A DNA stretch of 64,000 nucleotides, from NCBI RefSeq assembly GCF_014279995.1, contig NZ_CP047935.1:248001-312000 (forward strand). The letters run 5' to 3'. The number at the start of each line of letters is the position of its first letter. Position 1 is the stretch's first letter. Position numbers and translations under genes: made by a program. The DNA is from Synechococcus sp. BIOS-E4-1 (GTDB lineage Bacteria > Cyanobacteriota > Cyanobacteriia > PCC-6307 > Cyanobiaceae). Below, piece after piece: positions 30,751 through 50,489 of this stretch. The notes below the pieces were generated by a model. The model made no database searches. It had not been told where the DNA came from and saw only the letters and a list, made by a program, of their open reading frames with translations.

Positions 30751-30754
<4 letters not shown>
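28616..30754 (-). CDS. selD: FAD/NAD-dependent oxidoreductase fused to selenide, water dikinase (SelD)
   Basis: A 712-residue bifunctional protein. Residues 1-350 are an NDH-2-like pyridine-nucleotide-disulfide oxidoreductase domain, with the FAD loop VMAGGGHSHALVL and the second FAD motif KLFAAGDCAVID. Residues about 355-712 are SelD, which makes selenophosphate from selenide and ATP. Its catalytic loop is CKGCAAKL, with Cys365, Cys368 and Lys371. The ATP-binding region shows IGGHTLEARDGLAQ and GVLFAAAMAGAT, and DITGFGLLGHLGEM is typical of the family. The FAD domain may feed reducing equivalents for selenium reduction. It overlaps galE by four bases (start of one in the stop of the other), so the two are probably co-transcribed. 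Confidence 0.92.
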
Positions 30755-31900: not shown

Positions 31901-33028
31901 ATGAGGGTTTTGATTTTCACGTCGAGTGGTGGCACAGCCCATGACGCCGCCGCCTATGCGATAGAGGCCTGGCTCAAGCGCTGGGATCCAACCGGTGAGG
32001 TGTGGGTTGAGCATGTGCTGGAAAATGCCAGCGTTTTTACCCGCGCGGGAGTTGCTCTCTACAACTGGATTCAGCGCCATGGGCCCTGGATGCATCAGAT
32101 CTATTGGCGTGTTGTGGAATGGGAAGACGTCACCAAGCCAGGAACCCTGCTCGCTGGGCGCTTTTACGTGATTCGTCTGTTGCGGCGTTTGCAGCCGGAT
32201 TTATTGATTTCCACCCACCCTCACATCAACCGCGGTCACTTCGATCTGGCGAAGCGGGTTGTTCCAGGTCTCCGCTGCATCACCTGTTGCACGGAGTTGG
32301 AGGGCGGCTTTGGCTTCAGTCGCAACTGGCTGACGCAACGAGCTGAAGCGTTCTGGACCCTCTCCCAGGAAGTCAGCGATGACGTGCGCCGACGTGGCTA
32401 CCGCTCCTTGCCGACCCCGGCGCTTGGGCCGTTGTTTGATCCCGCTTTTGAGGAGGAGCTGGAGCGCGAGATTTCAGAGAGTGACATCGAGCAGCTGCCA
32501 CTTCTGGTGCTGGGAGCTGGGGCTAATGGGGCCAATAACCACATCCGTTTGCTGGAGACCCTGCTGCCCTTGGCGGGGAAGATCAGGGTTGTCGCCCTCT
32601 GCGGCCGTCGTCAGGCGGCATTTCGACAGGTTCAGGCCTGGGCGGCGCAGCATCCTCAGCTGAAGGTTGAGCCGTTGGTTTTTCAAGACCCAGCAGCGAT
32701 GGCATTGCTCTACAGAACAGCCTGGGCCATGGTGGCGCGGCCAGGGGCACGAACATCCACGGAGGCTCTGGCCTCTGGTTGTGTGCTGATTTTCAATGGG
32801 TTTGGCACAACGATGCCTCAAGAATTATTGGCCCGTCGCTATTTCCAGGCTCGCGAGATCGATCGCTGTATCCGTCAGCCCCAAGACCTCGTTGCACTAT
32901 GTCGGAGCTGGCTTGAACAGCCACACCTATATCAACAGCTGAAGGCACGCATGCAGCGTCACCGACTCAGCGCCAATCGGGACGCGATTCGCCAGCTTCT
33001 CTTCAACGGTCCACAGGCACTGGTCTGA
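31901..33028 (+). CDS. GT28 glycosyltransferase, MGDG-synthase/MurG-like
   Basis: A 375-residue GT-B enzyme. The N-terminal half has LIFTSSGGTAHDAAAYAIEA, then a Trp-rich segment followed by LLISTHPHINRGHF, resembling the Mgd-type acceptor domain. The C-terminal half carries LVLGAGANGANNHIRLLETL and the donor-site MVARPGARTSTEALASGCVL with the conserved Gly-Pro/Gly-Ala and Glu, as in MurG, MGDG synthase and processive diacylglycerol glucosyltransferases. It may glycosylate a lipid at the inner membrane, possibly the product of the downstream polyketide synthase. It is not the usual cyanobacterial GT2 MgdA enzyme. Confidence 0.8.
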   Translation: MRVLIFTSSGGTAHDAAAYAIEAWLKRWDPTGEVWVEHVLENASVFTRAGVALYNWIQRHGPWMHQIYWRVVEWEDVTKPGTLLAGRFYVIRLLRRLQPDLLISTHPHINRGHFDLAKRVVPGLRCITCCTELEGGFGFSRNWLTQRAEAFWTLSQEVSDDVRRRGYRSLPTPALGPLFDPAFEEELEREISESDIEQLPLLVLGAGANGANNHIRLLETLLPLAGKIRVVALCGRRQAAFRQVQAWAAQHPQLKVEPLVFQDPAAMALLYRTAWAMVARPGARTSTEALASGCVLIFNGFGTTMPQELLARRYFQAREIDRCIRQPQDLVALCRSWLEQPHLYQQLKARMQRHRLSANRDAIRQLLFNGPQALV

Positions 33029-33133: not shown

Positions 33134-34456
33134 GTGGCTCAGAGATCCAATCGCCTGTTTCGCTACCTCTGGGGCGGTCAGCTGATTTCCAATCTGGGAA
33201 CTCAGACGAGTCTCTATGGCATCGGTCTTTGGTTGTTTGCTCAGTCTGGCCAGTTACTCGACTTTGGCCTGGTGGCCATGGTGGTGCAGGCGGCACGTTT
33301 GTTGGCGTTGCCGCTGTTTTTACGCGTTTTCCCGGCATGGCGTCCAGGCCGTTTGATGGTGCTCTGCCATGCCACGGGTGCAGTGTGCACTGCTTTGTTG
33401 GCTGTGGTGTTGCTTGGCTCTTCCGCTGATGAGCCACCTCGGTTGCTCGGCGTTCTGGCGATTCAAGCTTTGGCCGCAGTGGCTGAAGCGGTGTTGGTGG
33501 TGCGTCTCTCCAGCCTGATTCCGCTGCTGATCTCCGATCAGGAGCGTTTACAGCGAGCCAATGGATTGTTCGCCACCGTGGATGGCTTAGTGATCACCAT
33601 GGCTCCCTTCCTGGGGAGCTGGCTTGTCGCCAGTCAGGGCCTGGGCGGTGTGCTGCTGCTTGATGGAATCAGTTTTTTGTTGGCCCTGCTGAGTGTTCTG
33701 GTCGCTCCCTGGTCGCAGGCCATGCAGCAGCACGATTGGGCCGTCCCTGAGGCGTCCAATCAGCTCATGGCTCCTGGCACTTGGAATCGTTTGCTTGCGC
33801 TCTGGCAGCGTTCCTTCCCAGCCCGCTCAGCTCTTGTTTTCACAGCGCTCACGGCATTTGTGTATGCCTCTCTGGAAGTGCTTTTTCCTGCTTGGGTGGC
33901 GCTGGCCTATGCGCCTGAGCGGATGGGTTGGGTTCTGATCACAGGCTGCTTGGGGTATTTGATCGGGTTTGCTGGCTGGCGATGGCGATTGGGGCAGCAG
34001 TGGCGAACTGTCCTGCCCTTGAGCCTGATCATCCAGGCGCTGATCTTGATGGGCACTGGATTGCAAGCCTTTGCGCATCGACCCGTGGTTTGGTTTGGAG
34101 CTGTCTTGGTGTTCAGTGCGGCCTTGCCCGTTGTGATGGCAGCACTTCACCAGGCCTGGGTGACCCTGGCTCCCCGGGACGCACTGCCTCGCTACTTTTC
34201 ACTGCGCTATGGCTGCGAATGGTCAACCCGTTTGTGCGCCTTTCTGGGCGTACCTCTGCTGGTTGACCATGGATTGCGCCCGGCACTCAATTGGCCTCTG
34301 TGGCCAGCTTGGTTAACAGAGAGTCTTGGCACCGGGGAGGGTCGTGTGATGGCGATTGCCATCGGTGGTCTTGGCTGGGTGATTGCCGGCGGCCTGTCTT
34401 GGAAACACCTTTGTTTGGGTGCAAAACCATCCAATGTCCAGGCGGAAGGTCTTTGA
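33134..34456 (+). CDS. Major facilitator superfamily transporter
   Basis: A 440-residue protein with about 12 predicted helices and the short cytoplasmic N-terminus MAQRSNRLFRYLWGGQ (GTG start). The motif-A region between helices 2 and 3 is degenerate. LISDQERLQRANGLFATVDG after helix 4 is typical of the enterobactin-exporter/DHA3-like group of MFS proteins. The location beside the polyketide synthase suggests efflux of a small molecule or lipid precursor. The direction of transport is not shown by the sequence. Confidence 0.85.
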   Translation: MAQRSNRLFRYLWGGQLISNLGTQTSLYGIGLWLFAQSGQLLDFGLVAMVVQAARLLALPLFLRVFPAWRPGRLMVLCHATGAVCTALLAVVLLGSSADEPPRLLGVLAIQALAAVAEAVLVVRLSSLIPLLISDQERLQRANGLFATVDGLVITMAPFLGSWLVASQGLGGVLLLDGISFLLALLSVLVAPWSQAMQQHDWAVPEASNQLMAPGTWNRLLALWQRSFPARSALVFTALTAFVYASLEVLFPAWVALAYAPERMGWVLITGCLGYLIGFAGWRWRLGQQWRTVLPLSLIIQALILMGTGLQAFAHRPVVWFGAVLVFSAALPVVMAALHQAWVTLAPRDALPRYFSLRYGCEWSTRLCAFLGVPLLVDHGLRPALNWPLWPAWLTESLGTGEGRVMAIAIGGLGWVIAGGLSWKHLCLGAKPSNVQAEGL

Positions 34457-34683: not shown

Positions 34684-34800
34684 ATGGGCAATGTCGAGGA
34701 GCTCCTGCCGCTCTCGCCTCGCTGGCTCCACCCACTGAATGGTTTCCGTGAGGATGTTCGTTCCATGCGCCTGAACGGGCTGCATGTCCCCGGCGCATGA
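34684..34800 (+). CDS. Possible 38-residue leader ORF coupled to the PKS
   Basis: ATG 34684 opens a 38-codon frame starting MGNVEELLPLSPRWLHPL and ending VPGA. Its TGA overlaps the polyketide synthase ATG (ATGA at 34797-34800), the typical signature of translational coupling. The frame stays open upstream to a stop at 34624-34626, with a TTG at 34642 as another possible start. I recognise no domain. It may be a small coupled protein or a chance frame. Confidence 0.35.
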   Translation: MGNVEELLPLSPRWLHPLNGFREDVRSMRLNGLHVPGA

Positions 34801-37800
34801 ATCAGCAGATCCGTCCGGTTTCCTCAGTGCACGAGCCCATCGCGGTTTTGGGGATGGGCTGCCGTCTGCCTGGCGGGGTCGAGAGTCCTGAACAGTTCTG
34901 GCAACTGTTGGCTGAAGGACGGGAGGCGATCGCTGAGATTCCCTCAGACCGCTGGGATCTTCAGCTTCACCATCATCCTGATCCGCGCACGCCGTTGCAC
35001 CAGCATGTACGCCGAGCGGGCTTGGTGGATGGGATCGACCAGTTCGATCCAGCCTTGTTTGGCATTAGCAGCAGGGAAGCCCAATGCATGGACCCTCAGC
35101 AGCGCCTGTTGCTTGAGGTGTGCTGGAGGGCGATGGAGGCGGGAGCCCAGCCCATGGAGCAGTTGCGTGGACGCTCAGTGGGAGTGTTTATGGGCATTTC
35201 CAGCTCGGATTACCGAGCTCTGCTTTGGGCCTCTGAAAATCAATACCTCACGCCTGATAACGAACCTTTCATTCTTACCGGCAACACCGGTTCCATTGCG
35301 GCCAACAGGATTTCCTATGCCTTTGATCTCAAAGGGCCCAGCTTCACCGTGGATACGGCTTGTTCCTCGTCGTTGGTGGCGTTGCATCTGGCTTGCGAGA
35401 GCCTGAGGAGGGGTGAGTCGGAGCTGGCCTTGGCTGGCGGTGCTCAGGCGTTGATTCACCCCGCCATTCAGATGAGTTTCTGCAAAGCCGGTTTGCTGTC
35501 GCCCGAGGGGCGTTGCCGCAGTTTTGATGCGGCGGCTGATGGTTATGTGCGTTCTGAAGGGGCGGGGGCTGTGCTGCTCAAGCCGTTGGCGGCGGCTTTG
35601 CGTGATGGTGATCCGATTGAAGCTGTGATTCGTGGTACGGCGGTGAATTCCGATGGGCGCAGTAAGGGCCTGGCCGCACCCAGCAAAAAAGCGCAGATCG
35701 CTTGTGTGCAAGCCGCCTATCAGGGCTCTGGCTTATCCCCGGCTTCAGCGCAATTGGTTGAAGCCCACGGCACCGGCACTCGCCAGGGGGATCCCATTGA
35801 ACTTAGGGCCCTTGGAGCGGTGCTGGGGCAGGAGCGGCCAAGCACTGACCCTTGTTTGCTGGGCTCAGTGAAAACCAATGTGGGTCATTCGGAAACCGCT
35901 GCAGGCATTACGGGTTTCATCAAAGCCGTGTTGTGTCTGAGGCAGCGCATGGTGCCTGCCAGCCTTCATTACAAGCGGCCTAATCCCAGCGTGGATCTGC
36001 CTGCTCTAGGTCTGAAGGTTGCGACAACGCTGCAACCTTTCCCAAGACCTGAGCAGGAACTGGTGGTCAGTGTCAGCTCGTTTGGATTTGGTGGCACCAA
36101 CGCTCATGCTGTTTTGAGCAGTGCTCCTGTTGAGCTTTCTCAACCCACGTCAACGTCGTTATCAGCGCCTTCGTGGCATTTGCTCTGGTTGAGCGCGCGC
36201 AACGAGGAAGCACTTGATCTGCTTCGTCCACAAACAGCGGATTGGCTTGAAGATCATGCTGCTTTTCGCTTGCAGGACCTCTGCGCCAGCATTCATCTGC
36301 GACGCTCCCAATGTCCCCATGCGCTGGGGTTGATTGCGAGCAGTGTTCAAGACCTGGTACGCCAGTTGCGCGGGCAAGAGCCTGCGGCGTGGACTGGTGT
36401 CGTTGCTGCGCGTGGACCTGGGGTGTTGCCAGAGAGGTTGAGAGATCTGCAACAACAGACTCTGTCTGAGGGTGCCGTTGGTTTTGAGCAGCTCCAGCAG
36501 CTTGTTCAGGCTTTGGCTCAGGGAGCCCCGATAGATTGGTTGGCATGGCATCAAGGTGCTTCCTGGCATCAGCTGCGGCCGCCAGGTCATCCCTTTCTGC
36601 GTTCACGTTTTTGGTGGACGCCACGTGATCACGGGCTGGATCAAGGTAAAGCCAGTCTTTGGTTGGATCACGTCGGCTTTGGCAGCAGTGTCACCGCTGA
36701 GCAGTCTGGACTGGCTTTACAGAAGTTGGACCTTCCAGGAGCGTCAGAGCATTGGCAAACAGTGTTGGATCCGGCTGATGCTCGCGACCTTCCTGACCAT
36801 GCGTTGTGCGGCTATCCCCTGTTTGCGGCAGCGGGTTATCTCGCCCTTCTCATGGATTGGTTGAACGATCAACAACAGCCACTTCAATGTGCTGATTTCA
36901 ATCTCGATCGTCCGCTGTGGCTCAACGCTGGATCGGTCCAGCTGCAGGCTGTACGCGACGGTGATGCGTTCAGCTTCCATGCCCGCTCCCCTCAGGCCGA
37001 AGACGGCGGCAGCTGGCAGCTCCATGGCCAGCTTCGGCTGACAACAGCTGCTGATCAATCCATCCACCCACTGCCGGTATTGGTGTTTGACGGTGGTGCC
37101 GACCTTGATATCTCCAGCTTTTATCGCTCCCTGAAGAGTCTTGGGCTGGATTACGGCAACTGCTACCGGCCGCTTGTTGCTATGCAAGCGAACGCCACTG
37201 GCGCCGAAGCCCTGCTGCATCGTCCTGAGGCGGCGGCTGATCGCAGCCTGATCGATGGTTTTTTTCAACTGGTGGCTGCGGTTCTTGCCCAAACGCATGC
37301 CAATGGCCAATTACTACTCCCTGTGGGAGTGGAGCAGATGCAGATGTTGCGATGGCCATTGCCTGACCAGCTGCGTTGTCGCTTACAACTTCGCAAGGAC
37401 GATCACAGCCAGGGAGATGACGGAAGTCGTGCGCACTTGACCGCTGACTTGGATGTTCTTGATCTCTCCGGGGACCTGATCGGTGCGATCCGTGGCCTGC
37501 AGTTCCGGCGTCTGACGCGAACGTTGCTGGAGTTGATGTTGCCTGAGGATCCTTCCAGACCTGCCGCGCAACTCCTGGAGGAGCATTGGCAACCCCTTGC
37601 GGCACATGCACTCAGCGACTGGAGCCCAGGAGCGGCTGAGCCCATCAGCCTGATTGCGATTGGTCCACTGCCAGATGCCGTTAGGGAATGGAGCGAGCAG
37701 CAGGCGATCACGCCTTTTGAACTGGATCCACAAGCGGATCCTCAATCGGTGACTTCAGCGCTGGTGCAACAACTCCAGGCGCTTGCTCTAACTCAGCCGC

Positions 37801-40800
37801 GCCAGGTGCTGTTGTGGATGTCGGCTTTCTCCACCCCTGCTGCTGAGGCGGTCCAGGCGGCAGTGCGTTCCTTGTCCCAGGACTGTTCCGCATGGCGTTG
37901 CAGCACGATCACAGCGTCCCTTCCTGCCCTGGCTGCAGGGCTGTCATCCGCTGAGTGGCACCAGCTTTTGGCTGCCACCGCCGGTGATGCTGAGGTCCGC
38001 TGGTGTGGTCCTGATCGCATTGAAACCCGCAGTTTTCAGCCGATTGATCAAGAGCGTTTTCGCATGCTCTCCGATGGAACTGGTCGACTTGAGGGGCTGC
38101 TGAAGGCGCCCTTGCCGCTGGCGCGTCTTCTGCCAGGAGAGCTGGAGTTGGCGGTGGAGGCCACGGGGCTGAACTTTCGCGATGTTCTCAACGCTTTGGG
38201 GCTTCTGCAAAGTCACAATCAATCCCTCGGGCTGAGAGCCAATGCTCAATTGCCGTTCGGTGGTGAAGCCGTCGGGAGGGTGGTCGCTGTCGGCCCTGGG
38301 GTGGATTCCTCGTTGGTGGGCCAGCGAATGCTTGCCGCGCTCACCCTTGGAAGCCTGGCAAGCCATGTGACGTGCAGAGCAGTGCTCTGCGTGCCCTGGC
38401 CGGAAGAGTTGGATCCCGTGCTGGGGGCGAGCCTTTCAACGGCCTATCTCACGGCAGAGCATGGGCTTGAGCAGCTGGCCCGGCTTCAAGCTGGAGAAAC
38501 GGTTTTGATTCATGCGGCTGCCGGTGGTGTGGGGCAGGCAGCTGTGCAGGTGGCCTTGCGCTGCGGTGCTCGCATCCTGGCCACCGCCAGTGAGGCCAAA
38601 CAGGCTGGATTGTTGGAGCAAGGCGTGGAGGCGGTCTTCGATTCCCGCTCCACTGATTTCGGTGACAAGGTGCTCAAGCACACCGAAGGCCGCGGCGTTG
38701 ATGTGGTTCTGAACAGCCTGAAAGGTGAGTGGGTGGATGCCAGCTTCCAGACGCTTGCTTCCGGCGGGCGCTTTGTAGAGCTTGGCAAGCTGGAGATCTG
38801 GAGCGATCAGCAGGTGCGCGAGCGACGGCCTGATGTGGGCTATTTCCGCTTTGACCTGCTGGAAGTGGCTGCTCGCGATCCACAACCCTTGAGGCAGCGA
38901 TTGCTGCGATTGGTGGCGGCGGCCCAGGAGCAAACCCTGCCCGCTTTGCCGGTCTCAGCCTTTGCTTTGAAACAGTGCAAGGACGCTTTTCGACGGATGT
39001 CGCAGGGCAAGCATGTGGGCAAGTTGGTGATCACTCTGCCCAGGCAAGCCCCTCCTTGTGCCATTTGCACCAACGGCACCTATTTGGTTGTGGGTGCTTT
39101 TGGAGGGATCGGGCAACGTTTGCAGTCCTGGTTGGTGGATCGGGGGGCGCGCTCGTTGTTGTTGGTGGGCCGACGTCTGCCCGCACCAGGCTCGGTCTCT
39201 GCCGAGTGGTTGAACCGCCTTCGTTCTCAGGGTGTGCAGGTTGAGGCGCTCGGCTGGGACGACCTCCCTCAAGCACTCGCGCGGTTACCTCAGGACATGC
39301 CGCTGCGTGGCGTCTTCCATGCTGCTGGAGTGCTGAAAGATCAGCGCGTCGGTGAGATTGAATGTTCCAGTCTCAATGCCGTGTTTGAGGCAAAACTGTG
39401 TCCCCAGCAGCAGCTGGACAAGCTTCAAAAGTTGCAGCCAGCAGCTTTTGAACACCTCGACTTCCAGGTGATGTTCTCGTCCATTGCCGCGGCACTGGGT
39501 TCGCCTGGCCAGTTGGTCTATGGGGCTGCCAATGGGGCTGTTGAATCCAGCTGCCGCAATGCGGACTCCGTAGGGCCGGTTCAGCTGGCGATTCAGTGGG
39601 GGCCTTGGGCTGGTTCGGGCATGGCTGCAGGGTTGGAGCGGCGCTTTGAATCCGTTGGCCTGCATCTCCTGGCTGAAGACGAAGCGTTGTCGGCTCTGGA
39701 GTCATTGCTGCAACGAGGCCGTGGCGGAGTGGTGACGGTGATGGCAGCCGATTGGCCGCGGCTTGTCAGTCAGGCCTTGCCCCGCCAGGCGGCTTGGTTC
39801 CGGTCCCTGATCCATGAACTTCCAGGCCGATCAGAAGCCCAGGTTCGCGCTCAATTGGAGGCCTTGGCAGCGGATCAGCGCAGACCCTGGCTGCTGTCGA
39901 CGCTTCAACAACTTCTGGCCGCGGTGATGGAAGAACCGGAAGCTCAGCTCGATGCTCAGGCCAGCCTGTTTGATTTAGGACTCGATTCGCTGATGGCGGC
40001 AGAGTTTGCTGCCGAAGTGCAGCAAGCATTGGGCTGGCGCCTTGATCTGGCTGCGTTCAGCGATGCTCCCTGCCTGGATGATGTGGCCAGCATGGCTCTC
40101 GAGCGCTTGTTGCCAGACGGCTCGGCAGCGGCACCGGAGGAATTGGATCTTGATCAGGAGGCTCAGCTGGACGAGAGTTGGTCATTGCCGGAGCTCTCGC
40201 CCGTTGCGGCGCCTGGAGAACAAGTTCTGCTGACTGGCGCAAGCGGTTTCCTGGGCGCCTATCTCCTGGCGGGGCAACTCTGCCAATGGCCGGATTTGCG
40301 GGTTCGCTGTTTGGTGCGGGCGGCCTCTGAGCAGCAAGGCATGGAGCGATTGGAGCAGAACCTGCGCCGCTACGGGCTTTGGCAGCAGTCCTGGCAAGAG
40401 CGCTTGGAGGTGGTTCTTGGTGATCTGGCTCAGCCTCGGTTGGGTTTGGATGCCGATCAGTTTGCTGCCCTTGGAAGGGGCATTGGCGGCATCCTCCACA
40501 ACGGTGCCCAGTTAAGTCAGATGGCGAGCTATGCCCAATTGGCAGCCACCAATGTGGGCGGAACGCGTGAGCTTCTGCGTCTAGCCGCTGCGGACACACC
40601 AAAACGCTTCGCCTTGATCTCCAGCGTGGCGGTGTTTGAGGCCGATGCCTGCCGGGATCAGTTGATTCTGGAAGACGATCTTCTTGAGGATTGGCAGGGA
40701 ATCCAGCTCGGCTATTCCCAAACCAAATGGGTCACGGACCGGATGGTGCGCCGCGCTTCAGCATCCGGACTGCCTGTTTCGATCTACCGGCCCCCGTTAA

Positions 40801-41324
40801 TTGCAGGTCCATCCTGCGGAAGTGCCTGGCACCAAGGTGACTTGCTTCAGCGCCTTCTTCAGGGCTGCTTGGCGTTAGGTGCTTCGCCTGATTTGGCCTG
40901 GGAATTGGATGTGGTGCCTGTTGATTACGTCGCTGATTCAGTGTCGGCTTTGGCCTGGAGTGATGAGGCACAAGGCCGTGCTTTCCATCTTCAGCATCCT
41001 GAACCGCTCCTGCTCACCACTTTGTTGAGGCAACTCACCGATGGCTTGGATGGTTGGCGCGTTTTGCCGATGCAGCAATGGATCGCTGAGATTGAGCGCA
41101 GTTCCGGCAATCCTCTCCAGCCTTTGCTGCCCTTCCTTCAGCAGAGCTGGGGTGAAGATGGGCTGACCTATCCCGAGCGCAACTGTGTGGGTCAGCGGGC
41201 TCGTCCCAGTTGTGCCTTCACGGCTCAGGTGCTGGAGACCCATGGCGTGAGCTGCCCCCCCTGGCATCAGTTGATTGGGCCCTGGGCTTCAGTGCTGCTT
41301 CAGCGGGAACAACTGGCTCGCTGA
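34797..41324 (+). CDS. AT-less type I polyketide synthase, KS-DH-ER-KR-ACP-thioester reductase
   Basis: A 2175-residue multidomain protein. Ketosynthase, residues 12-440: DTACSSS with Cys189, EAHGTGT with His324, KTNVGHSE with His364. Residues 440-605 contain only a linker ending GHPFLRSRFWW. The acyltransferase of about 300 residues with GHSxG that normally lies here is absent. Dehydratase, about 620-900: LPDHALCGYPLF with His668, and LIDGFFQL with Asp820. Enoylreductase, about 1089-1414, NADPH loop HAAAGGVGQAAVQ from 1239. Ketoreductase, about 1425-1650, loop VGAFGGIG, Tyr1575, with LKD matching B-type. Acyl carrier, LGLDSL with Ser1731. Thioester reductase, about 1810-2175, loop TGASGFLG from 1813, YSQTKW with Tyr1973 and Lys1977. 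All reductive domains are present, so a fully reduced chain is expected, released as an aldehyde or alcohol. Malonyl loading must come from another protein. Confidence 0.95.
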   Translation: MNQQIRPVSSVHEPIAVLGMGCRLPGGVESPEQFWQLLAEGREAIAEIPSDRWDLQLHHHPDPRTPLHQHVRRAGLVDGIDQFDPALFGISSREAQCMDPQQRLLLEVCWRAMEAGAQPMEQLRGRSVGVFMGISSSDYRALLWASENQYLTPDNEPFILTGNTGSIAANRISYAFDLKGPSFTVDTACSSSLVALHLACESLRRGESELALAGGAQALIHPAIQMSFCKAGLLSPEGRCRSFDAAADGYVRSEGAGAVLLKPLAAALRDGDPIEAVIRGTAVNSDGRSKGLAAPSKKAQIACVQAAYQGSGLSPASAQLVEAHGTGTRQGDPIELRALGAVLGQERPSTDPCLLGSVKTNVGHSETAAGITGFIKAVLCLRQRMVPASLHYKRPNPSVDLPALGLKVATTLQPFPRPEQELVVSVSSFGFGGTNAHAVLSSAPVELSQPTSTSLSAPSWHLLWLSARNEEALDLLRPQTADWLEDHAAFRLQDLCASIHLRRSQCPHALGLIASSVQDLVRQLRGQEPAAWTGVVAARGPGVLPERLRDLQQQTLSEGAVGFEQLQQLVQALAQGAPIDWLAWHQGASWHQLRPPGHPFLRSRFWWTPRDHGLDQGKASLWLDHVGFGSSVTAEQSGLALQKLDLPGASEHWQTVLDPADARDLPDHALCGYPLFAAAGYLALLMDWLNDQQQPLQCADFNLDRPLWLNAGSVQLQAVRDGDAFSFHARSPQAEDGGSWQLHGQLRLTTAADQSIHPLPVLVFDGGADLDISSFYRSLKSLGLDYGNCYRPLVAMQANATGAEALLHRPEAAADRSLIDGFFQLVAAVLAQTHANGQLLLPVGVEQMQMLRWPLPDQLRCRLQLRKDDHSQGDDGSRAHLTADLDVLDLSGDLIGAIRGLQFRRLTRTLLELMLPEDPSRPAAQLLEEHWQPLAAHALSDWSPGAAEPISLIAIGPLPDAVREWSEQQAITPFELDPQADPQSVTSALVQQLQALALTQPRQVLLWMSAFSTPAAEAVQAAVRSLSQDCSAWRCSTITASLPALAAGLSSAEWHQLLAATAGDAEVRWCGPDRIETRSFQPIDQERFRMLSDGTGRLEGLLKAPLPLARLLPGELELAVEATGLNFRDVLNALGLLQSHNQSLGLRANAQLPFGGEAVGRVVAVGPGVDSSLVGQRMLAALTLGSLASHVTCRAVLCVPWPEELDPVLGASLSTAYLTAEHGLEQLARLQAGETVLIHAAAGGVGQAAVQVALRCGARILATASEAKQAGLLEQGVEAVFDSRSTDFGDKVLKHTEGRGVDVVLNSLKGEWVDASFQTLASGGRFVELGKLEIWSDQQVRERRPDVGYFRFDLLEVAARDPQPLRQRLLRLVAAAQEQTLPALPVSAFALKQCKDAFRRMSQGKHVGKLVITLPRQAPPCAICTNGTYLVVGAFGGIGQRLQSWLVDRGARSLLLVGRRLPAPGSVSAEWLNRLRSQGVQVEALGWDDLPQALARLPQDMPLRGVFHAAGVLKDQRVGEIECSSLNAVFEAKLCPQQQLDKLQKLQPAAFEHLDFQVMFSSIAAALGSPGQLVYGAANGAVESSCRNADSVGPVQLAIQWGPWAGSGMAAGLERRFESVGLHLLAEDEALSALESLLQRGRGGVVTVMAADWPRLVSQALPRQAAWFRSLIHELPGRSEAQVRAQLEALAADQRRPWLLSTLQQLLAAVMEEPEAQLDAQASLFDLGLDSLMAAEFAAEVQQALGWRLDLAAFSDAPCLDDVASMALERLLPDGSAAAPEELDLDQEAQLDESWSLPELSPVAAPGEQVLLTGASGFLGAYLLAGQLCQWPDLRVRCLVRAASEQQGMERLEQNLRRYGLWQQSWQERLEVVLGDLAQPRLGLDADQFAALGRGIGGILHNGAQLSQMASYAQLAATNVGGTRELLRLAAADTPKRFALISSVAVFEADACRDQLILEDDLLEDWQGIQLGYSQTKWVTDRMVRRASASGLPVSIYRPPLIAGPSCGSAWHQGDLLQRLLQGCLALGASPDLAWELDVVPVDYVADSVSALAWSDEAQGRAFHLQHPEPLLLTTLLRQLTDGLDGWRVLPMQQWIAEIERSSGNPLQPLLPFLQQSWGEDGLTYPERNCVGQRARPSCAFTAQVLETHGVSCPPWHQLIGPWASVLLQREQLAR

Positions 41325-42502
41325 TGCCATCCTCGTTGTTGCTGTTGGCCCTATGGCTTGCGCAAGCCCTGCTTGTCTTTGCCTTCAGCCAACGTTTGCG
41401 GGGTTTGCGTCGCTCGTCCGATCCAGCATCTCTTCCTGAAGGTGCTTGGCCTCCCTTGGAAGTGGTGTTGTGTTTGCGCGGTGCTGATGCCTGCCTGCCG
41501 CGGTTGCTGGAGGCGTTGGCTGCTCAGACCTATCCAGCTCCCTGGCGCTTGCAGGTGGTGGTAGATAGCGATCAGGATCCTGCCTGGGCCATGATTAGTC
41601 CATGGCGAGCTCATGAAGATGCAGCCTGGGCTGAGTTGCGCTGCTGCACCCTTCTTCAGCGCCCAGGCCAGGGGTCGTTGAAATGCGCAGCACTAAGCCA
41701 GGCCTTTTCTCAGATTCACCCCAGCAGCGCTTTGGTTGTGCTTCTGGATGCCGATATTCGTTTCCCAGCCAACGGCCTGGAACGTTGTGCGCTCTCTTGC
41801 CTCCAACCAGGAGTGGGTGCCATCTCTGGGAATCGTTGGTTTAGTCCCCCTGCACCCAGCTTGGGCGCTCTTCATTGGAGCAGCTGGACGCGAGCCGTTT
41901 GGAATGCAGGTGCTGTGGTGCTGATGACGCTCCTGCAGATTCCCTGGGGCGGCACCCTTTGCGTTCGTCGTGAGCTGGTGGAGGCCGGTGATTGGAGCGA
42001 GCTTTTAAAGCGTGGGTTGTGTGAAGACACGGGTTTGCTTGGTCCATTGCGGCAGTTGGGGTTGGGCTACCGCTTTGAACCAAGCCTGCTGATGCTGGAT
42101 CCCGATCCAGCCCAGCCCATGCTGCCGTTGGGCCGTTGGATCACCCGTCAATTGCTCACAGCTCGCCTGCATCACCCCGCTTGGCCACTGGTGGCCTTCC
42201 ATGGCCTGAGCAGCGTGCTGTTGTTGGCGTTTGCTTTGTTTCAAGGAGCCTGGTTAGCAGTGCTGATCTATGAGCTGGGATGTGTGTGCCTGCTCTGCTG
42301 GATCCAAGTTCTGCTGCGCCCTCAGGACCCTGTTCGGATTTGGGGTTGGATCGTGGGACTGCTCTCCGGACAATTGGTGGATGGACTGGCCACCTTGGCG
42401 GCCGTGTTCACGCGCCATGTTTCATGGCGTGGTGTCGACTATGCCTTGCATCTCAGGCCATCTCGCGTGGTGCTTCGCAGAGACCGGGGTGTTGAGGTTT
42501 AG
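41324..42502 (+). CDS. Ceramide-glucosyltransferase-like GT2/GT21 membrane enzyme
   Basis: A 392-residue enzyme with an N-terminal helix (SLLLLALWLAQALLVFAF) and about three C-terminal helices around a cytosolic GT-A domain. The catalytic motifs are VVLLDADIRF (metal-binding DxD), LCEDTGLLGPLRQLG, and an RQLLTARL segment in the place of the QxxRW motif, as in glucosylceramide synthase and HpnI. The start ATG overlaps the polyketide synthase stop by one base, so both are translated together. This placement argues strongly that the acceptor is the released polyketide alcohol or a lipid derived from it. The stop overlaps that of the convergent SRPBCC gene by four bases. Confidence 0.85.
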   Translation: MPSSLLLLALWLAQALLVFAFSQRLRGLRRSSDPASLPEGAWPPLEVVLCLRGADACLPRLLEALAAQTYPAPWRLQVVVDSDQDPAWAMISPWRAHEDAAWAELRCCTLLQRPGQGSLKCAALSQAFSQIHPSSALVVLLDADIRFPANGLERCALSCLQPGVGAISGNRWFSPPAPSLGALHWSSWTRAVWNAGAVVLMTLLQIPWGGTLCVRRELVEAGDWSELLKRGLCEDTGLLGPLRQLGLGYRFEPSLLMLDPDPAQPMLPLGRWITRQLLTARLHHPAWPLVAFHGLSSVLLLAFALFQGAWLAVLIYELGCVCLLCWIQVLLRPQDPVRIWGWIVGLLSGQLVDGLATLAAVFTRHVSWRGVDYALHLRPSRVVLRRDRGVEV

Positions 42503-43056
42503 TTGTTGGCCTGCATCAGCCCACTGAGGCGTTGCATCGATTCACGCAAGCTGTTGCGAGTGAGTTCAGCGAAGACCGGTTGCAGCATGCCTGGCAGCTC
42601 AGGAACCAGGGTGATGCTGTGACGCAGACGCGTTCCCGTTGGTGTTGGCGTGATCGTCCAGCTGCCATTGAGCTTGCGAATGCGATCGCCATTGAGCATG
42701 TGAAAGTTGATCGCCGTTTTTGGGCTTTCTTTCACGGCCAGGGTTGCGCTGATCGTCAAGCCAAAGGTGTACGGCGCTTGATAGGTCTGGCGCATGCGAA
42801 TCAGATTGCCTTGACGACTCAGAATCTGGACCTTGCTGATGTCAGGCATCGCCTCTCCCGTGGCGACATAGTTCGTGAGCACTGTCCAGGCACGCGCTGG
42901 TGACACCGGCAGTGTCATGACAGCCGTACGGGTGTTGCCTGACTGTTGGATCTGGATCGACGTTGCTTGCGCAGCATCCGCTGGCGTTGTTGGTAGATGT
43001 GTCAGCACGATCCCCAGCCCGAGCAATGTTGATCGCAGGTGAGGCTGGATGGTCAT
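42499..43056 (-). CDS. Secreted SRPBCC (polyketide cyclase/START-like) protein
   Basis: A 185-residue protein starting MTIQPHLRSTLLGLG, with a Sec signal peptide ending near TPADAAQA. The frame extends 19 codons upstream, but the later start gives a proper signal. The mature part has the SRPBCC layout: VMTLPVSPARAWTVLTNY (first strand and helix of the lipid-binding cavity), IRMRQTYQAPYTFGLTISAT, LNGSWTITPTPTGTRLRHSI and a long C-terminal helix after PGMLQPVFAELTRNSL. Such folds bind hydrophobic ligands. Exported members may carry a lipid across the periplasm. The gene is antisense within the polyketide locus, divergent from the hydrolase-like gene with a two-base overlap of starts. Confidence 0.8.
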   Translation of the reverse strand: MTIQPHLRSTLLGLGIVLTHLPTTPADAAQATSIQIQQSGNTRTAVMTLPVSPARAWTVLTNYVATGEAMPDISKVQILSRQGNLIRMRQTYQAPYTFGLTISATLAVKESPKTAINFHMLNGDRIRKLNGSWTITPTPTGTRLRHSITLVPELPGMLQPVFAELTRNSLRESMQRLSGLMQANN

Positions 43057-44167
43057 GGCAGTGAATCGAGCAGACGAGTTGAAGAAGACTGGATCATCGT
43101 GCAGGCGACGCACGTACTTCCTCAGCGGGTTTGACCCCCGTGGTGTGGCGCATTATCAGCGTTTATTTGCGCGGCTGATGAAACAGCGTGGTTGGCGTTT
43201 GGGGTCTCGCCAGGAGGGTGAAAGGATCACCCGCTGGCCCTTGTTGGATCCTGAGGTTGATCAACACTATGAGCTTGCTTTTTTGCATTGGGATGACATT
43301 GCCCGTGCCAACTGGCCAAAGCACCCCCGGCCGTTGCTGACCCAGTTGCTGGGATTTGCGCGGGCCTATCTGCTGCAGGGGGGAGTCGTGCGTACGGCGC
43401 GGTTGTGCCCTGGTGTGGCTCTTTGCGGGCTTTACCCCGTCATGGTTTTGATTTTGGTCACGCTTGCAGCGATTGCCGCTGGAGTCTTGGCTGCCTTGCT
43501 CTGGCTTCCATTGGCACCGTTGGTGGTGGCTGTGGTGCTATGGCAAGGATGGAGACTGGCGGATCGCTTGGGTGTGGTGTGGCTCTGTCGCTCCATCTTG
43601 TTCACCCATCGCCTGGGCAGCCTGAGAGACACGATGTTGCGCCAGCGGGTGCAGGAGTTGGTGGAGGCATTGCTGGCTTTGGAACAGATCAATCCCGCTG
43701 ATGAAATTCTGTTAGTGGGTCATAGTTCCGGATCGTTTGTGTTGGCGATGGTGGCAGCTGAACTGCGACGCCATCCCAATTCCATGGCAGTCACATCCAG
43801 GTTGCGTTTGCTGAGTCTGGGCCAGAACCTGGCCAATCTGGGCTTGTATCCGGGTGCGGAGGCTTTTCGCGATGATCTTCAGACGCTGGCGATTAAACCC
43901 TGTTTGCCCTGGCTGGATGTCACCTCCTTCGATGATCTGTTGTGTTTTGCGGGAGTGAATCCCTACCAAGCCTGTGGTTTGCCTGTGCCAACGAGTGAGG
44001 GCAGTGACTACCCGCGGATGCAGCTGCTGAATCTGCGTCAAGTCAACGGTTTACAGCGCAAGCGGCAATGGCTGGCCCAGTTGTTTGATCTCCATTTCGA
44101 CTATTTGACCAATCCAGCCGCGGGCCTGGATCTCTGCGGACTGATGACTGGTGAGGTCACGATCTGA
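43055..44167 (+). CDS. Membrane alpha/beta-hydrolase-like protein, 370 residues
   Basis: The start MAVNRADELKKTGSS (43055) is uncertain because the frame is open slightly upstream. After a soluble N-terminus (RTYFLSGFDPRGVAHYQRLF) come one or two helices at about 128-170, then a region containing ILLVGHSSGSFVLAMVAAEL. GHSSG has the GxSxG nucleophile elbow of alpha/beta hydrolases (Ser224). Later LPWLDVTSFDDLLCFAGVNP could carry the acid residue. It lies between the SRPBCC gene and the P450 and shares a single base with the latter. Lipase, thioesterase or acyltransferase activity toward the polyketide product is possible. Confidence 0.75.
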   Translation: MAVNRADELKKTGSSCRRRTYFLSGFDPRGVAHYQRLFARLMKQRGWRLGSRQEGERITRWPLLDPEVDQHYELAFLHWDDIARANWPKHPRPLLTQLLGFARAYLLQGGVVRTARLCPGVALCGLYPVMVLILVTLAAIAAGVLAALLWLPLAPLVVAVVLWQGWRLADRLGVVWLCRSILFTHRLGSLRDTMLRQRVQELVEALLALEQINPADEILLVGHSSGSFVLAMVAAELRRHPNSMAVTSRLRLLSLGQNLANLGLYPGAEAFRDDLQTLAIKPCLPWLDVTSFDDLLCFAGVNPYQACGLPVPTSEGSDYPRMQLLNLRQVNGLQRKRQWLAQLFDLHFDYLTNPAAGLDLCGLMTGEVTI

Positions 44168-45609
44168 TGGCCATTACACCCCCTTGGCCAAAACCCTTGC
44201 CCTACACCGCCAATGTGTTGCGGCGCCTGAAGCGGGGATGGAGCAGTTGGTTTGGTTTGCTCAATGAATGGGATTTCCGCATCGCTCTCGGTGAGCTCAA
44301 TCTTCTGGGCCTGAGAGTGTTTTTGGTGAATGATCGAACACTGCTCAGGCGCGTGCTTGTGCAGGAGGTGGAGGCCTTCCCGAAGCACCCCTACACGCTG
44401 TGGATTCTTGAACCTCTGATTGGCCGAGCGATTTTTTCTGTCAATGGAGACGAATGGGCACGCCAGAGGCGCTTGGTTGATCAGGCGTTTCAGGTGGCCC
44501 AGTTGGAGCAGGTGTTTCCTGCGATGGAGGCTGCAAAAGACGCCATGTTGCAGCGGCTTGTGCAGCAGCTCTCCGAGCAAGGCGATTGCGGCCAGCAAGG
44601 AGCTGGAATCGATATCGAAGCAGCGATGACCTGGGTCACCGCTGATGTGATCGTGCGCACAATCCTCAGCAGACCGGTGCAGGAGGGAGAAGCGCGTGTG
44701 GTGTTTGAGGCCTTTGGGCGCTATCAACGCAAGGCCGCCCGGGCACTGATCTTGCGTTTTGCGCGCTTGCCACGGCGTTGGGTGCAGCGCTCGCTGACAC
44801 GCGATGCGCTGGTGATTCGCCATTGGATCCAAGGCGTGATCGAGGAGCGACTCGCGCAGCCTGAGACTGTTGTGAAGGATCTGCTGGGTGCCCTGCTTGC
44901 CGCCGTGGATCCTCAAACCGGTACTTCCTTCACGGCCGAGGAATTGGTGGATCAGATTTGCTTCCTGTTTCTGGCCGGTCATGAAACCTCAGCCAGTGCC
45001 TTGAGCAGTGCCTGTTGGCTGTTGGCTCTGGATCAAGAGGCTCAAGGCCAGTTGCATGCAGAGGTGGCATCTCTCCCTGAGACTGTGACGCACCAAAGCT
45101 TGAGGCAGTTGCGCTATGGAGCTGCGGTGTTTCAGGAAACCTTGCGCCTCTATCCGCCGGTGAGTTTCTTTATTCGTGAACGCGTCAATGAAGACACCGA
45201 CTTCTCGGTTCCATCGATGGAATGCCCGCAGCAAGCTCCCGCGATCAGTCGTTGTCCGGTTGGATCGTTGTTGACGTTTTCGCCTTGGGTGATTCATCGC
45301 CATGACGACTACTGGCCGGAACCTCACCAATTCCGTCCCGAACGTTTTCTGGATGGCAGCGCGACGAATCAGGAGATTCTTTGCCGCAAAGAAGCTTGGC
45401 TCCCCTATGGCCTAGGTCCGCGCAAATGCCCCGGAGCCGCGTTTGCCCAACAGGAAGCCTTGTTGGTGCTGGCTGAACTCATCAAGCACTTTCAGCTCTT
45501 CCCTGGAAGTGAGAACTCAGGCCCTCAATGGACTGGAAGGCTTACGTTGCGCAGTGCATCGGGTGTTGTGTTGAGGCTTGTTCCGAGATCACCGGTTAAA
45601 AACCGATGA
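44167..45609 (+). CDS. Cytochrome P450
   Basis: A 480-residue heme monooxygenase. The I-helix motif is AGHETSAS (Ala270-Ser277 region with Glu273, Thr274). The K-helix ExxR is QETLRLYPPV (Glu324, Arg327). The heme loop is PYGLGPRKCPGAAF with ligand Cys421. No N-terminal anchor is apparent and the start MAITPPWPKPLPYTANVL resembles CYP120- and CYP110-type cyanobacterial enzymes, which act on retinoids or fatty acids. In this locus it probably hydroxylates the polyketide chain or a lipid. It needs electrons from ferredoxin or a similar donor not encoded here. The 3' end overlaps the convergent outer-membrane gene by 14 bases. Confidence 0.92.
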   Translation: MAITPPWPKPLPYTANVLRRLKRGWSSWFGLLNEWDFRIALGELNLLGLRVFLVNDRTLLRRVLVQEVEAFPKHPYTLWILEPLIGRAIFSVNGDEWARQRRLVDQAFQVAQLEQVFPAMEAAKDAMLQRLVQQLSEQGDCGQQGAGIDIEAAMTWVTADVIVRTILSRPVQEGEARVVFEAFGRYQRKAARALILRFARLPRRWVQRSLTRDALVIRHWIQGVIEERLAQPETVVKDLLGALLAAVDPQTGTSFTAEELVDQICFLFLAGHETSASALSSACWLLALDQEAQGQLHAEVASLPETVTHQSLRQLRYGAAVFQETLRLYPPVSFFIRERVNEDTDFSVPSMECPQQAPAISRCPVGSLLTFSPWVIHRHDDYWPEPHQFRPERFLDGSATNQEILCRKEAWLPYGLGPRKCPGAAFAQQEALLVLAELIKHFQLFPGSENSGPQWTGRLTLRSASGVVLRLVPRSPVKNR

Positions 45610-47533
45610 GTAATCGTCCGCCCCAGCGCACCTGTTCGGCGTTGATTAACTGACCAATATCAAGCAGCGAGGCAGCGGTACTTCCGTAGGCCTCAAGCGC
45701 CACGCTGTCTGTGGCATGCCAACGAAGCCCCAGGGTGCCGTTGCTTTGGGACAGTTGATTGATCACGACATTGCCTTCGGGTACGAGCTCCCAACCAGGG
45801 AAGAGTTGGAGATTGGAACTGATCCCTAAGCCCCAAAGGTTGCCTGCTCCGCTCAAGGCCACTTTGGGGTTGAAGTTGATCGCCAATCCCTCGGTTGCTT
45901 CCCAGGTCGCCATGGTTTCTGCGAACACATAGCCCTGGCCGCTGCTGCTCTCTTGATTGCTTCTTCCCAGGGTGATACGCCCCCCTCCCCAGAAGGGAGC
46001 ACCACGGAGAGGACTAAAGGCCACCGCTTTGCCGCCGATGCGCCAGTTCCAAGCTCCATCGTTGGCGTAGAGGCGGGCCTGGGGCGTGGTCTGGGGCACG
46101 TTGTTGTAAAGCCCTCCGCTGAACAGAGTCAGCTGGAAGATGTTGGAGAGGGAATAGCCAACGAACCCGTTGAGGTTTCCTCCGCTATCAGCATTGATCC
46201 AAGCCTCTGTGTTGGTGTCCGGTGGCACCAGGGCGGTGTTGACCGTGAGTCCTCCTTTGGCCAAGGATTGCTGTCTGGGCGCCAGCGGTACCTGGGGGGT
46301 GTCTGCAGTACCCGGCGTGAACACGAAGCTGGCGGAATAGCCAATCTTGTTATCGGAGGGCAAAGCGAGCAATGCAGTCGCTGGTGTTGCTCCGAAGCCA
46401 TTGGTGATCAAGCCTTTGAGCCCGATTCGCGGATTGAGATCCCAGTTGATCCCTGCGGACAGAATGGGAACGCGAGAAAAAACCAGATCTGCATCGAAGC
46501 TGTTGGTGCCGCTACCGATCGGTTGGGCGATGCTGGCGGTGAATCCCAGCTCCGGGAACGGTTGGAACAGAATTCCACCACTGACGTAGGGGTTGGTTCC
46601 ATAAAACGTGCCAGCTCCACCCTGTCCAGCACCTTGGGTTGAAGGCAGAAAGCTCACACCCGGAGCAAAGCTGAATTGCCACTGTTTGCTTGCTTGCCAA
46701 CTCGCAGGAAGGCTGAGGGATCCAACGAAGTTGCGGGTGAAGACTCGGCTGCCGGAGTCATTGAAAATGTTGGGGCTGGCGTTATTTCCCGAGTCAGAGA
46801 ACGAGTCGTCTCCGCCACTCCCCACTTCCCAGGCTTCAAGTGAGCCACTGATGGCCAGCTTCCAGTTGTTCTGGTTGAGAAGTTGCCACTGGGCCGCGGC
46901 CCCGTAGCTCTGCCAAAAATTGGCCGGTTGGATGGCGAAACCGGTGAGTGGGGCGTTGAGCGGGTCGTCGGCCTGACTAATAAAAAATGACAGCATCAGG
47001 CTGTCGTTAAAGCCAACGTCAAGATTGATCGAATAATTCTGATTGCCAGTGCCTGCAGCACTTTTGAAGGGCGAAATAGTCCCAAACGAGATGCGCCACT
47101 GATCAGCGGGCAGGGTTTCTGCCGTGGGAACGGAAGGTGAAAGTCGCAGTAGCGGTTGATAGTCGCTGGGTTTCAGAGGAATGGTGCTGAGCAGCGCTTC
47201 GACTTCTTCCACGCTGGCGGGTGGTTTTACTTCAGTTGTCGATGCAGCTTCCGCAGTTGGAAGATTGGTCACATCCTCAGCGTCCAGCAATTCCCAAGCC
47301 ACAATCGTCGATGGTTGATCTTGTTCCTCCGATTCAGGAACAACCTGCCAAGAAACAGTCTTTAGCGACGGATTTTTCTCGTCTGTGTTATGTACAGGTT
47401 CCCAGACAACAGGAGGGGGGGTGATGATAGGCGAGTCGATGACCTCCCACAGGATCTGCGCGTGTGTTGCTTGAGGCAGTCCGCCTCCCACTCCGATGGT
47501 TAAAAAGGAGCTGGAAATCAGAAGCCTGCGCAT
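45596..47533 (-). CDS. Outer-membrane beta-barrel protein with four N-terminal Trp repeats
   Basis: A 645-residue protein starting MRRLLISSSFLTIGVGGG, with a signal peptide cleaved near THAQ. An upstream ATG at 47563 adds ten residues and overlaps the previous stop. After the signal come four spaced repeats of a WExV type: WEVI (Trp29), WEPV (Trp44), WQVV (Trp62), WELL (Trp80), spaced 15-18 residues. The rest alternates short polar turns and amphipathic strands and ends in VRWGGRLLIGF, with the C-terminal Phe of outer-membrane barrels. It is the third gene of a leftward operon after Wza- and Wzz-like proteins, so it may be the polysaccharide secretion pore or a partner of it. Confidence 0.82.
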   Translation of the reverse strand: MRRLLISSSFLTIGVGGGLPQATHAQILWEVIDSPIITPPPVVWEPVHNTDEKNPSLKTVSWQVVPESEEQDQPSTIVAWELLDAEDVTNLPTAEAASTTEVKPPASVEEVEALLSTIPLKPSDYQPLLRLSPSVPTAETLPADQWRISFGTISPFKSAAGTGNQNYSINLDVGFNDSLMLSFFISQADDPLNAPLTGFAIQPANFWQSYGAAAQWQLLNQNNWKLAISGSLEAWEVGSGGDDSFSDSGNNASPNIFNDSGSRVFTRNFVGSLSLPASWQASKQWQFSFAPGVSFLPSTQGAGQGGAGTFYGTNPYVSGGILFQPFPELGFTASIAQPIGSGTNSFDADLVFSRVPILSAGINWDLNPRIGLKGLITNGFGATPATALLALPSDNKIGYSASFVFTPGTADTPQVPLAPRQQSLAKGGLTVNTALVPPDTNTEAWINADSGGNLNGFVGYSLSNIFQLTLFSGGLYNNVPQTTPQARLYANDGAWNWRIGGKAVAFSPLRGAPFWGGGRITLGRSNQESSSGQGYVFAETMATWEATEGLAINFNPKVALSGAGNLWGLGISSNLQLFPGWELVPEGNVVINQLSQSNGTLGLRWHATDSVALEAYGSTAASLLDIGQLINAEQVRWGGRLLIGF

Positions 47534-47559
47534 TCTGCTGTGGAAAGGTGGCGCGTACT

Positions 47560-49284: not shown

Positions 49285-50489
49285 TGGCCCAACTCATTGA
49301 AAAGTGAATAAACGGAGTAGAGCCCAACAAATGGTCCGGTCAATTCATTCAATACACCGACTGCTCCACTCAAGATAGAATCCTGGACGCGAATTAAATC
49401 ACCAGCTGCCAAAACTGGATTGGTGGGTGCGTCAGCAGCTGCGCCGGGTTGATAAGCGAATATTCTCCTGTCGATCGTGCCTTCTTGGTTGAAACGCACA
49501 AATTCCACCTTGCCCTTAATGATTTTCATCCCCCCTGCCAAGGATATAGCCTGGTTGAGAGAGCTCCCTTGAGGAACTTGCACGCCACCAGGAATGTTGA
49601 CGCGTCCGGTGACAAAAACTTCAAGGAATTGTGGGCTGAGATTCGATTGCCCAGCTTTTAAAAGTTGATCTTTCAGCACTACAGAACTCCTGCCGACGCT
49701 CAGCACATCACCATCAAAGAGACGGATGTTTTGCGACTCGTTCCCTTCGGTGATCAGAGAAAGGAAGTCAAGATTGGTGCGGATGCGACCGCCACCTAAG
49801 CCTGCAGCCCGTTTGCGTGTGACCTGCACTTCAGCGAGCTTTGAATAGGGGGTGATGCCTTGCGCCGCTCGAATTGCATCAAAGACGGTGGGGAACACTG
49901 CTGCAAACGTCCCTAAACCATTTGCTCCTGGGCTCTGGGAAGCACTACCAGGCAACTGCCGCATGACCCTGCGGGCGATCTCGGTTGCACTACCTCTCGT
50001 CAGAATGTTGGTTTCTGCTGATTCGGATATGCGAGTGAGATCGTTGCTCCCACTGAGGGTGTAGTAACCAGGTCGCCTGACCTCTCCGCCTACGTAAACG
50101 CGGATCGGTCGGTACTTGACTGGGCGCACATACACCTGAGGGTCTCTCACATAAGTACGAAACTGCTGCGTGAGGAAGTAGCGAAGTTCCTCGACTGTGA
50201 GCCCCTCGACGTAAAGGGCACGCAGTCGAGGCAAGTAAAGGGTTCCGTCGGGACCGATCGAAGTCGTTTGGCTGAGTTCTGGCAGATCAAGCAACTCGAT
50301 CTGAAGACCATCACCTGGACCAAGAATGTAGGCGTCGTAGGAGATCTGAGCGCGCTGTTCTAGTGGGAGAGGTTGTTGCCTATTCGTTGTCTCTTCGATT
50401 TCAATGATTTGCTGCGCATTCACCGCGACTGGTGGAAGAGTTACTAAGACGCCAGCGGCGATTGCCGATAGGAAACGGATTTTCAGCAA
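49281..50489 (-). CDS. wza: Polysaccharide export protein, Wza-like with SLBB domains
   Basis: A 402-residue exported protein. The signal peptide is MLKIRFLSAIAAGVLVTLPP with cleavage near VNAQQ and no lipobox Cys. The polysaccharide export domain begins YILGPGDGLQIELLDLPEL, typical of the family, followed by DGTLYLPRLRALYVEGLTVE and a SLBB-like YVGGEVRRPGYYTLSG repeat. A second SLBB segment is EVFVTGRVNIPGGVQVPQGS. Its start begins an operon with Wzz-like and outer-membrane genes, divergent from hisS across about 135 bases. Stop/start overlap of four bases with the Wzz gene supports co-transcription. Confidence 0.92.
   Translation of the reverse strand: MLKIRFLSAIAAGVLVTLPPVAVNAQQIIEIEETTNRQQPLPLEQRAQISYDAYILGPGDGLQIELLDLPELSQTTSIGPDGTLYLPRLRALYVEGLTVEELRYFLTQQFRTYVRDPQVYVRPVKYRPIRVYVGGEVRRPGYYTLSGSNDLTRISESAETNILTRGSATEIARRVMRQLPGSASQSPGANGLGTFAAVFPTVFDAIRAAQGITPYSKLAEVQVTRKRAAGLGGGRIRTNLDFLSLITEGNESQNIRLFDGDVLSVGRSSVVLKDQLLKAGQSNLSPQFLEVFVTGRVNIPGGVQVPQGSSLNQAISLAGGMKIIKGKVEFVRFNQEGTIDRRIFAYQPGAAADAPTNPVLAAGDLIRVQDSILSGAVGVLNELTGPFVGLYSVYSLFNELGQ

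Follow-up and report, generated by a model that had tools for sequence, protein, structure and literature searches.

An acyltransferase-less, fully reducing polyketide synthase of apparent cis-AT descent in Synechococcus sp. BIOS-E4-1 and related Cyanobiaceae

The polyketide synthase and its gene neighbourhood

The window, i.e. the whole stretch of 64,000 nucleotides analysed here, corresponds to bases 248001-312000 of the 3.31-Mb single-contig genome of Synechococcus sp. BIOS-E4-1 and contains an open reading frame, uninterrupted from ATG through stop, encoding a type I polyketide synthase (PKS) of 2175 aa that lacks an acyltransferase (AT) domain (Table 1). A previous sequence-only reading of this DNA had placed ketosynthase (KS), dehydratase (DH), enoylreductase (ER), ketoreductase (KR), acyl carrier protein (ACP) and thioester reductase (TR) on this single chain, and both Pfam and TIGR01746 agree with it. 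Pfam matches cover KS (residues 13-392), the KS C-terminal extension (395-502), a CurL-like linker (461-524), DH (644-909; PS-DH above and PKS_DH_N below cut-off), ER (1113-1412), KR (1427-1605), ACP (1702-1765) and an NAD_binding_4 reductase (1812-2048), and the TR scores 276.5 bits with TIGR01746 against a cut-off of 213.35. The best match in the PDB by sequence is mycocerosic acid synthase (9d2y, 9d2z; E 4e-205), an enzyme that also has its reducing set in one protein, in which, however, an AT is present, methylmalonyl-CoA is used and there is no TR.

All eight catalytic residues listed in the sequence-only reading were found. In the 18 AT-less proteins described below, the named KS, DH and KR residues are invariant (18/18), and Ser1731 of the ACP and Tyr1973 of the TR are kept in all 17 proteins that are long enough, the remaining one (L023) stopping at a contig end; the loss of these two sites in relatives, which that reading had named as evidence against itself, is thus not seen. 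The TR pair Tyr1973 and Lys1977 is likewise conserved in the 17/17 proteins reaching the TR, as in a synthase terminated by a thioester reductase, and KR, DH and ER all have their catalytic residues, as in a fully reducing PKS, with the DH motif being HxxxGxxxxA instead of HxxxGxxxxP in the window PKS and its four nearest relatives. Values of dN/dS are 0.07-0.30 for every domain in comparison with the three nearest orthologues; the ratio cannot be trusted for two more distant orthologues, whose dS is high or saturated. Apart from those of the AT, the catalytic residues have stayed under purifying selection.

Table 1. Features of the PKS locus, in window positions; fractions count the other AT-less genomes with the gene unless stated.
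Feature	Position	Strand	Basis
Glycosyltransferase, GT28/MGDG-synthase-like	31901..33028	+	PF06925, 25.9 bits (cut-off 25); 17/17
MFS transporter, possible exporter	33134..34456	+	PF07690, 36.3 bits (cut-off 33.4); 16/17
AT-less type I PKS, KS-linker-DH-ER-KR-ACP-TR, 2175 aa	34797..41324	+	ORF, Pfam, TIGR01746
KS, residues 11-440; Cys189, His324, His364	34827..36116	+	Pfam, residue alignment, structure model
Fused KS-AT linker and post-AT linker, residues 441-609, site of missing AT	36117..36623	+	Linker profile, structural match
DH, residues 610-920; His668, Asp820	36624..37556	+	Pfam, residue alignment
ER, residues 1090-1415	38064..39041	+	Pfam, residue alignment
KR, residues 1405-1665; Lys1533, Ser1562, Tyr1575, Asn1579	39009..39791	+	Pfam, residue alignment
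ACP, residues 1690-1775; Ser1731	39864..40121	+	Pfam, residue alignment
TR, residues 1800-2170; Tyr1973, Lys1977	40194..41306	+	TIGR01746 above cut-off, residue alignment, TR tree
Glycosyltransferase family 2/21-like	41210..42502	+	PF00535, PF13506 (21.8 bits, cut-off 21.7); 16/17
START/polyketide-cyclase-like	42499..43113	-	PF03364; 16/17
Alpha/beta-hydrolase-like, invariant GHSSG	43049..44167	+	Sub-threshold hydrolase and lipase matches; 14/17
Cytochrome P450	44167..45609	+	PF00067; 13/17
655-aa protein	45596..47563	-	No Pfam family over cut-off; 14/17; 4/16 AT-bearing one-protein loci

In the window, the genes follow the order GT28-like, MFS, PKS, GT2/21-like, cyclase-like (reverse strand), hydrolase-like and P450, the same as in the genomes G024 and G002, and by coordinates the ATG of the GT2/21-like gene, at 41324, overlaps the final base of the PKS stop codon. 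In the other loci where both genes are in place, AT-less or AT-bearing, MFS lies ahead of GT28, an order that is swapped in these three genomes; in G020, MFS lies behind GT2. Most of the cluster accompanies AT-bearing relatives as well: with the limit that some loci stop at contig ends, GT28 was found in 13, MFS, GT2, cyclase and hydrolase in 11 each and P450 in 10 of the 16 AT-bearing one-protein loci, and GT28 in two, GT2 in none and each of the others in one of the 11 loci of the split type described below. None of the six genes was found in L093, L096 and L108. The genomes G020 and G026 have no P450 or hydrolase within the stretch fetched, so that the products may differ between strains. 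The 655-aa protein is possibly an outer-membrane barrel, and its membership of the cluster is uncertain. As for the wider surroundings, Wzz-like chain-length and polysaccharide-export (SLBB) genes flank the cluster (window 47560-50489 and 24897-26210), a sub-threshold O-antigen-ligase match is also nearby, and an oxidoreductase/SelD-related fusion protein is encoded at 28616-30754 (TIGR04369, 958 bits); the PKS cluster may lie within a surface-polysaccharide region. In searches of an open-licence library, no title or abstract described the cluster, and the words Synechococcus, Prochlorococcus and Cyanobium are absent from PMC11804610.

Distribution of the enzyme and fate of the acyltransferase

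A search with PKS residues 485-901 across 400 Cyanobiaceae genomes identified homologues in 45. In 18 of these the protein is AT-less: the window genome, five genus-mates, the apparent MAG G138 and eleven small genomes of 1.1-2.0 Mb, with a locus GC of 32-45%. The full gene was found in 5/30 genus relatives searched, some of which are incomplete, and one genus-mate PKS is 93% identical to that of the window. The retention of phycoerythrin subunits alone is a pointer to Prochlorococcus, and each of the eleven small genomes gave exactly two phycobiliprotein matches, against 12-13 in nine other genomes searched, except G002 (7; 70% complete) and G138 (5); on this basis, the eleven look like Prochlorococcus. 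Complete AT-less proteins, from small and large genomes alike, measure 2123-2196 aa, and the recurrence of the same architecture in 18 genomes makes chance or assembly error unlikely.

In the other 27 genomes, whose homologues were fetched at least partly, an AT, damaged in three cases, interrupts the same linker midway, within proteins of 2446-2680 aa with the order KS-AT-DH-ER-KR-ACP-TR, within a split pair (KS-AT-DH-ER-KR-ACP and KS-AT-KR-ACP-TR), or within pieces at contig ends. Except for the AT, the one-protein relatives (e.g. L082, L094, L099) have the domain order of the window PKS, to which they are 57-66% identical in the KS and 36-62% in the other segments; the AT motif GHSxGE is kept in 27/30 aligned AT-bearing rows, one-protein and split forms pooled, and no characterised member was found among these proteins. 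A two-protein version, in which KS-KR-ACP-TR accompanies KS-AT-DH-ER-KR-ACP, was observed in L085, L086, L088, L090, L092, L095, L097, L100 and L102-L104 and would predict a 3-hydroxy alcohol product. In larger cyanobacteria (L117-L126), a KS-KR-ACP-TR protein of about 2000 aa is shared, with a TR near the HglB-size TRs and no match to the ER and DH profiles; these loci were rejected as homologous clusters, since, apart from a weak match to GT28 in L126 (20% identity), their flanks lack the window cluster genes. Among the viral contigs, six peptide patterns, which reach close relatives only, found no matching stretch, and no plasmid record covered 80% of the query at a single site. A remnant of the cluster in G014 (L044, 7838-9426) comprises a GT28 homologue with an open frame (80%) and a PKS frame of 153 aa.

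The absence of the AT, claimed by the sequence-only reading, was borne out at several levels. PF00698 gave no match at E<=0.01 in the window PKS and in the 17 other AT-less members (0/18). In particular, residues 440-605, which that reading had singled out, contain no AT according to Pfam, a linker profile or a structure model, so that an AT hidden in the linker was ruled out. Its statement that only the linker end GHPFLRSRFWW is left has to be corrected, because the KS-AT linker and the post-AT linker are both retained in residues 441-609. In fact, a profile of these residues matches the AT-less proteins across the linker without an AT-sized gap, and splits in AT-bearing relatives, where 289-354 inserted residues separate the two pieces (213 in L091, which is truncated). 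Superposed on the KS-AT didomain 7uwr, the model of residues 1-640 (pLDDT 82.5, pTM 0.86, from 12 alignment rows) matches 550 residues at Z 58.3 and rmsd 2.2, its residues 13-607 pairing with 89-974 of the chain so that the AT is passed over. Its match to 5e5n, a trans-AT KS, spans 554 residues (Z 55.6, rmsd 2.4) and reaches from 3 to 591 of that chain with no AT-sized skip. Residues 461-535 of the model form a linker domain and 559-574 a helix, both matching linkers in solved structures, which indicates that the linker scaffold remains. It appears that an in-frame loss removed the AT from the central part of the KS-AT/post-AT linker.

The absence extends to the whole genome. A six-frame search found one PF00698 gene, of FabD size, in a 298-aa frame at contig position 2949389, and beyond it no dedicated discrete AT in the genome or in the cluster. 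Exactly one PF00698 match, in frames of 298-574 aa and never in the PKS, was also found in 16/17 other AT-less genomes, the match in G151 being interrupted by one stop, and none in G138, a draft 96% complete in 380 contigs. By comparison, 12 of the 13 AT-bearing genomes searched have at least two matches, with one or more lying inside a PKS frame, and in G268 the sole match is within its PKS. From their size and uniqueness we infer that the small PF00698 frames are FabD. In the window genome, one gene of the ACPS family was also found (255-aa frame), and the KS family is represented twice, by the window PKS and by a gene in a frame of 437 aa; a single PKS-type KS is compatible with iterative use. 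The hydrolase-like gene was considered as a substitute for the AT and rejected, since it also occurs in 11/16 AT-bearing one-protein loci; its best match in a profile search of the PDB is a lipase at E 0.19, all matches being weak.

The AT is damaged in three further genomes, drafts of 150-420 contigs each, which lie in at least two other lineages. In G168 (L101) and G120 (L105) the motif reads GHGAGE, and in G168 the stretch holding the FHS motif is also missing; in G285 (L091) it reads GSSGAGE and about 80 residues, FHS included, are missing. All three frames stay open into DH, ER and KR (in G120 a second frame, overlapping the first, encodes ACP and TR), and a separate AT gene of FabD size is present in each of the three genomes. 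Sequencing error is still possible, but the same substitution in two genomes and several in-frame changes in the third argue against it. G120 pairs with G071, whose motif is intact, in a KS+ER+KR tree (support 98), and one or two events would account for the substitution of Ser by Gly in G168 and G120. Furthermore, G285 falls in another part of that tree, and therefore the AT has been inactivated at least twice beyond its full loss.

Phylogenetic origin of the AT-less enzymes

In a quick KS tree of 115 rows, the 18 AT-less rows form one clade (95) nested in a Cyanobiaceae clade of 44 rows, of which the other 26 come from proteins with an intact or damaged AT. The same clade was recovered in the 50-row KS+ER+KR tree (99), with genus g42 (five rows) as its sister group (93), in a careful 29-row KS tree containing seven AT-less rows (98/97), and in a TR tree (99). 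A constraint joining the 30 AT-bearing rows as one clade was rejected at p 0.033, and one uniting the AT-less KSs with eight trans-AT-like KSs at p 6e-9 (AU test, 29-row KS tree), both values being weakened by the fact that the tested groups were named after the first tree had been seen. The eight were picked because they match the linker profile with no AT-sized gap, independently of database labels, and one of them, from G059, was placed among cis-AT rows. The nesting of the AT-less clade among AT-bearing rows thus has moderate support, and an AT loss is favoured whether or not it is nested, since the outgroup PKSs carry ATs. We conclude that a single loss from a cis-AT enzyme gave rise to the AT-less clade.

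It is important to weigh here the reading in which the enzyme is a member of the canonical trans-AT family, gained by transfer and served by a discrete AT encoded elsewhere. The module is indeed AT-less, and the model matches trans-AT KSs without a gap; however, the KS, which the sequence-only reading had proposed to place against the trans-AT clade, groups with cis-AT KSs although no AT is in the same protein, the trans-AT grouping is the one rejected at the lower of the two p values, and the genome lacks both a second AT-family gene and any dedicated discrete AT. In addition, the gene neighbourhood is mostly common to AT-bearing relatives, and seven small genomes share with the window the flanking UvrD and SelD-like fusion genes, which speaks for vertical descent. 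Membership of the canonical trans-AT family is largely refuted by the KS trees and the AU test, and the chance that it holds is almost negligible.

A resemblance to the synthases of heterocyst glycolipids (HglB and partner proteins), also suggested in the sequence-only reading, stood for the TR and failed for the KS. In the TR tree, the AT-less TRs form a clade (99) with four HglB-size TRs, a label assigned from size and context rather than by tool annotation, and with those of 10 KS-AT-KR-ACP-TR proteins, and six TRs from longer proteins fall outside it; this grouping fits lipid release, and glycosyltransferases lie near the genes in both systems. The window KS, instead, lies among cyanobacterial cis-AT KSs, on another branch from two KSs of HglB-size-TR regions, which branch far off on long branches in the 115-row tree, and in the window PKS the reductive set and the TR are in one protein. 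According to PMC4247773, heterocyst glycolipid KSs are placed with the PUFA type, and another PKS cluster, CF-3, is present in a marine Synechococcus.

Proposed mode of action and significance

The reading that we consider probable is that of a single-module, fully reducing PKS from a cis-AT parent, loaded in trans by FabD, working iteratively and releasing its chain through the TR towards an exported glycolipid. FabD, the only AT-family gene found, would load malonyl onto the PKS ACP in trans, the single KS would condense, KR, DH and ER would reduce and the cycle would repeat, until the TR frees the chain as an aldehyde or alcohol; two glycosyltransferases, the GT28-like one of which has a likeness to glycolipid synthases, would then add sugar, the P450, where present, would modify the product and the MFS transporter would export it. 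Loading of the ACP by FabD is highly probable, by elimination within PF00698. Iterative working is also probable, to a slightly lesser degree, and the sequence alone fits many extensions or one equally well; for a glycolipid as product we put the chances at about even.

The lack of a loading domain beside one KS and one ACP would also suit a non-iterative enzyme that extends a FAS-derived acyl chain by one two-carbon unit, reduces it and releases it, with little malonyl needed and FabD sufficient, and the split Cyanobiaceae pathways, with KS-AT-DH-ER-KR-ACP followed by KS-AT-KR-ACP-TR, suggest a chain hand-over there. The full reductive set under selection, however, fits chain building equally, and one extension would add little beyond FAS; we regard this possibility as unlikely. 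With no AT left for loading the PKS ACP, malonyl could also arrive at the KS on a FabD-charged type II carrier protein, the PKS ACP only holding the growing chain. This is still less likely, given that the ACP serine is kept in every protein that reaches it and that known AT-less PKSs load their own ACP. Finally, the AT loss might be the first step in the degeneration of an inactive enzyme, as could be suggested by the 25/30 searched genus-mates, some incomplete, without the full gene, and by G014, in which the 153-aa frame beside the GT28 gene matches only PKS residues 12-152 (78%), is followed by unrelated polysaccharide genes and is the only PKS match that passed the genome search. The open frame, the catalytic residues kept without change in distant AT-less relatives and the low dN/dS against the three nearest orthologues make decay very unlikely.

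Among known systems, the AT-less modules of the iterative trans-AT PKSs for chejuenolide and epifadin are thought to act iteratively, as proposed for the window PKS; those systems, as described in PMC9030710 and PMC11310079, combine multiple NRPS and PKS modules and encode a discrete AT within the cluster, whereas here there is one protein and the genome search found no dedicated AT. Algal trans-AT type I PKSs share with the window PKS an AT displaced from a cis-AT ancestor and, according to PMC4661987, are mostly non-iterative and multimodular. This 2015 study noted the lack of an iterative AT-less intermediate, and the window PKS is a candidate for that place.

AT-less PKSs are usually expected to form a separate trans-AT lineage with its own discrete AT. 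Here, on the contrary, a cis-AT enzyme has lost its AT, no replacement was found, and the same domain is decaying in other lineages. A broader view, to which we give somewhat less than an even chance, is that of a PKS family moving from cis-AT to AT-less, with the complete loss established in lineages of marine Synechococcus and of Prochlorococcus-like cells and with dead or truncated ATs still in place in other genera, since housekeeping FabD can charge the enzyme, an iterative intermediate without a dedicated trans-AT that makes an undescribed exported glycolipid. If this is true, such a glycolipid would be made by abundant ocean phototrophs. The loss seen here makes the route from cis-AT to AT-less PKSs directly testable, and the cluster points to an unstudied lipid pathway retained in small picocyanobacterial genomes.
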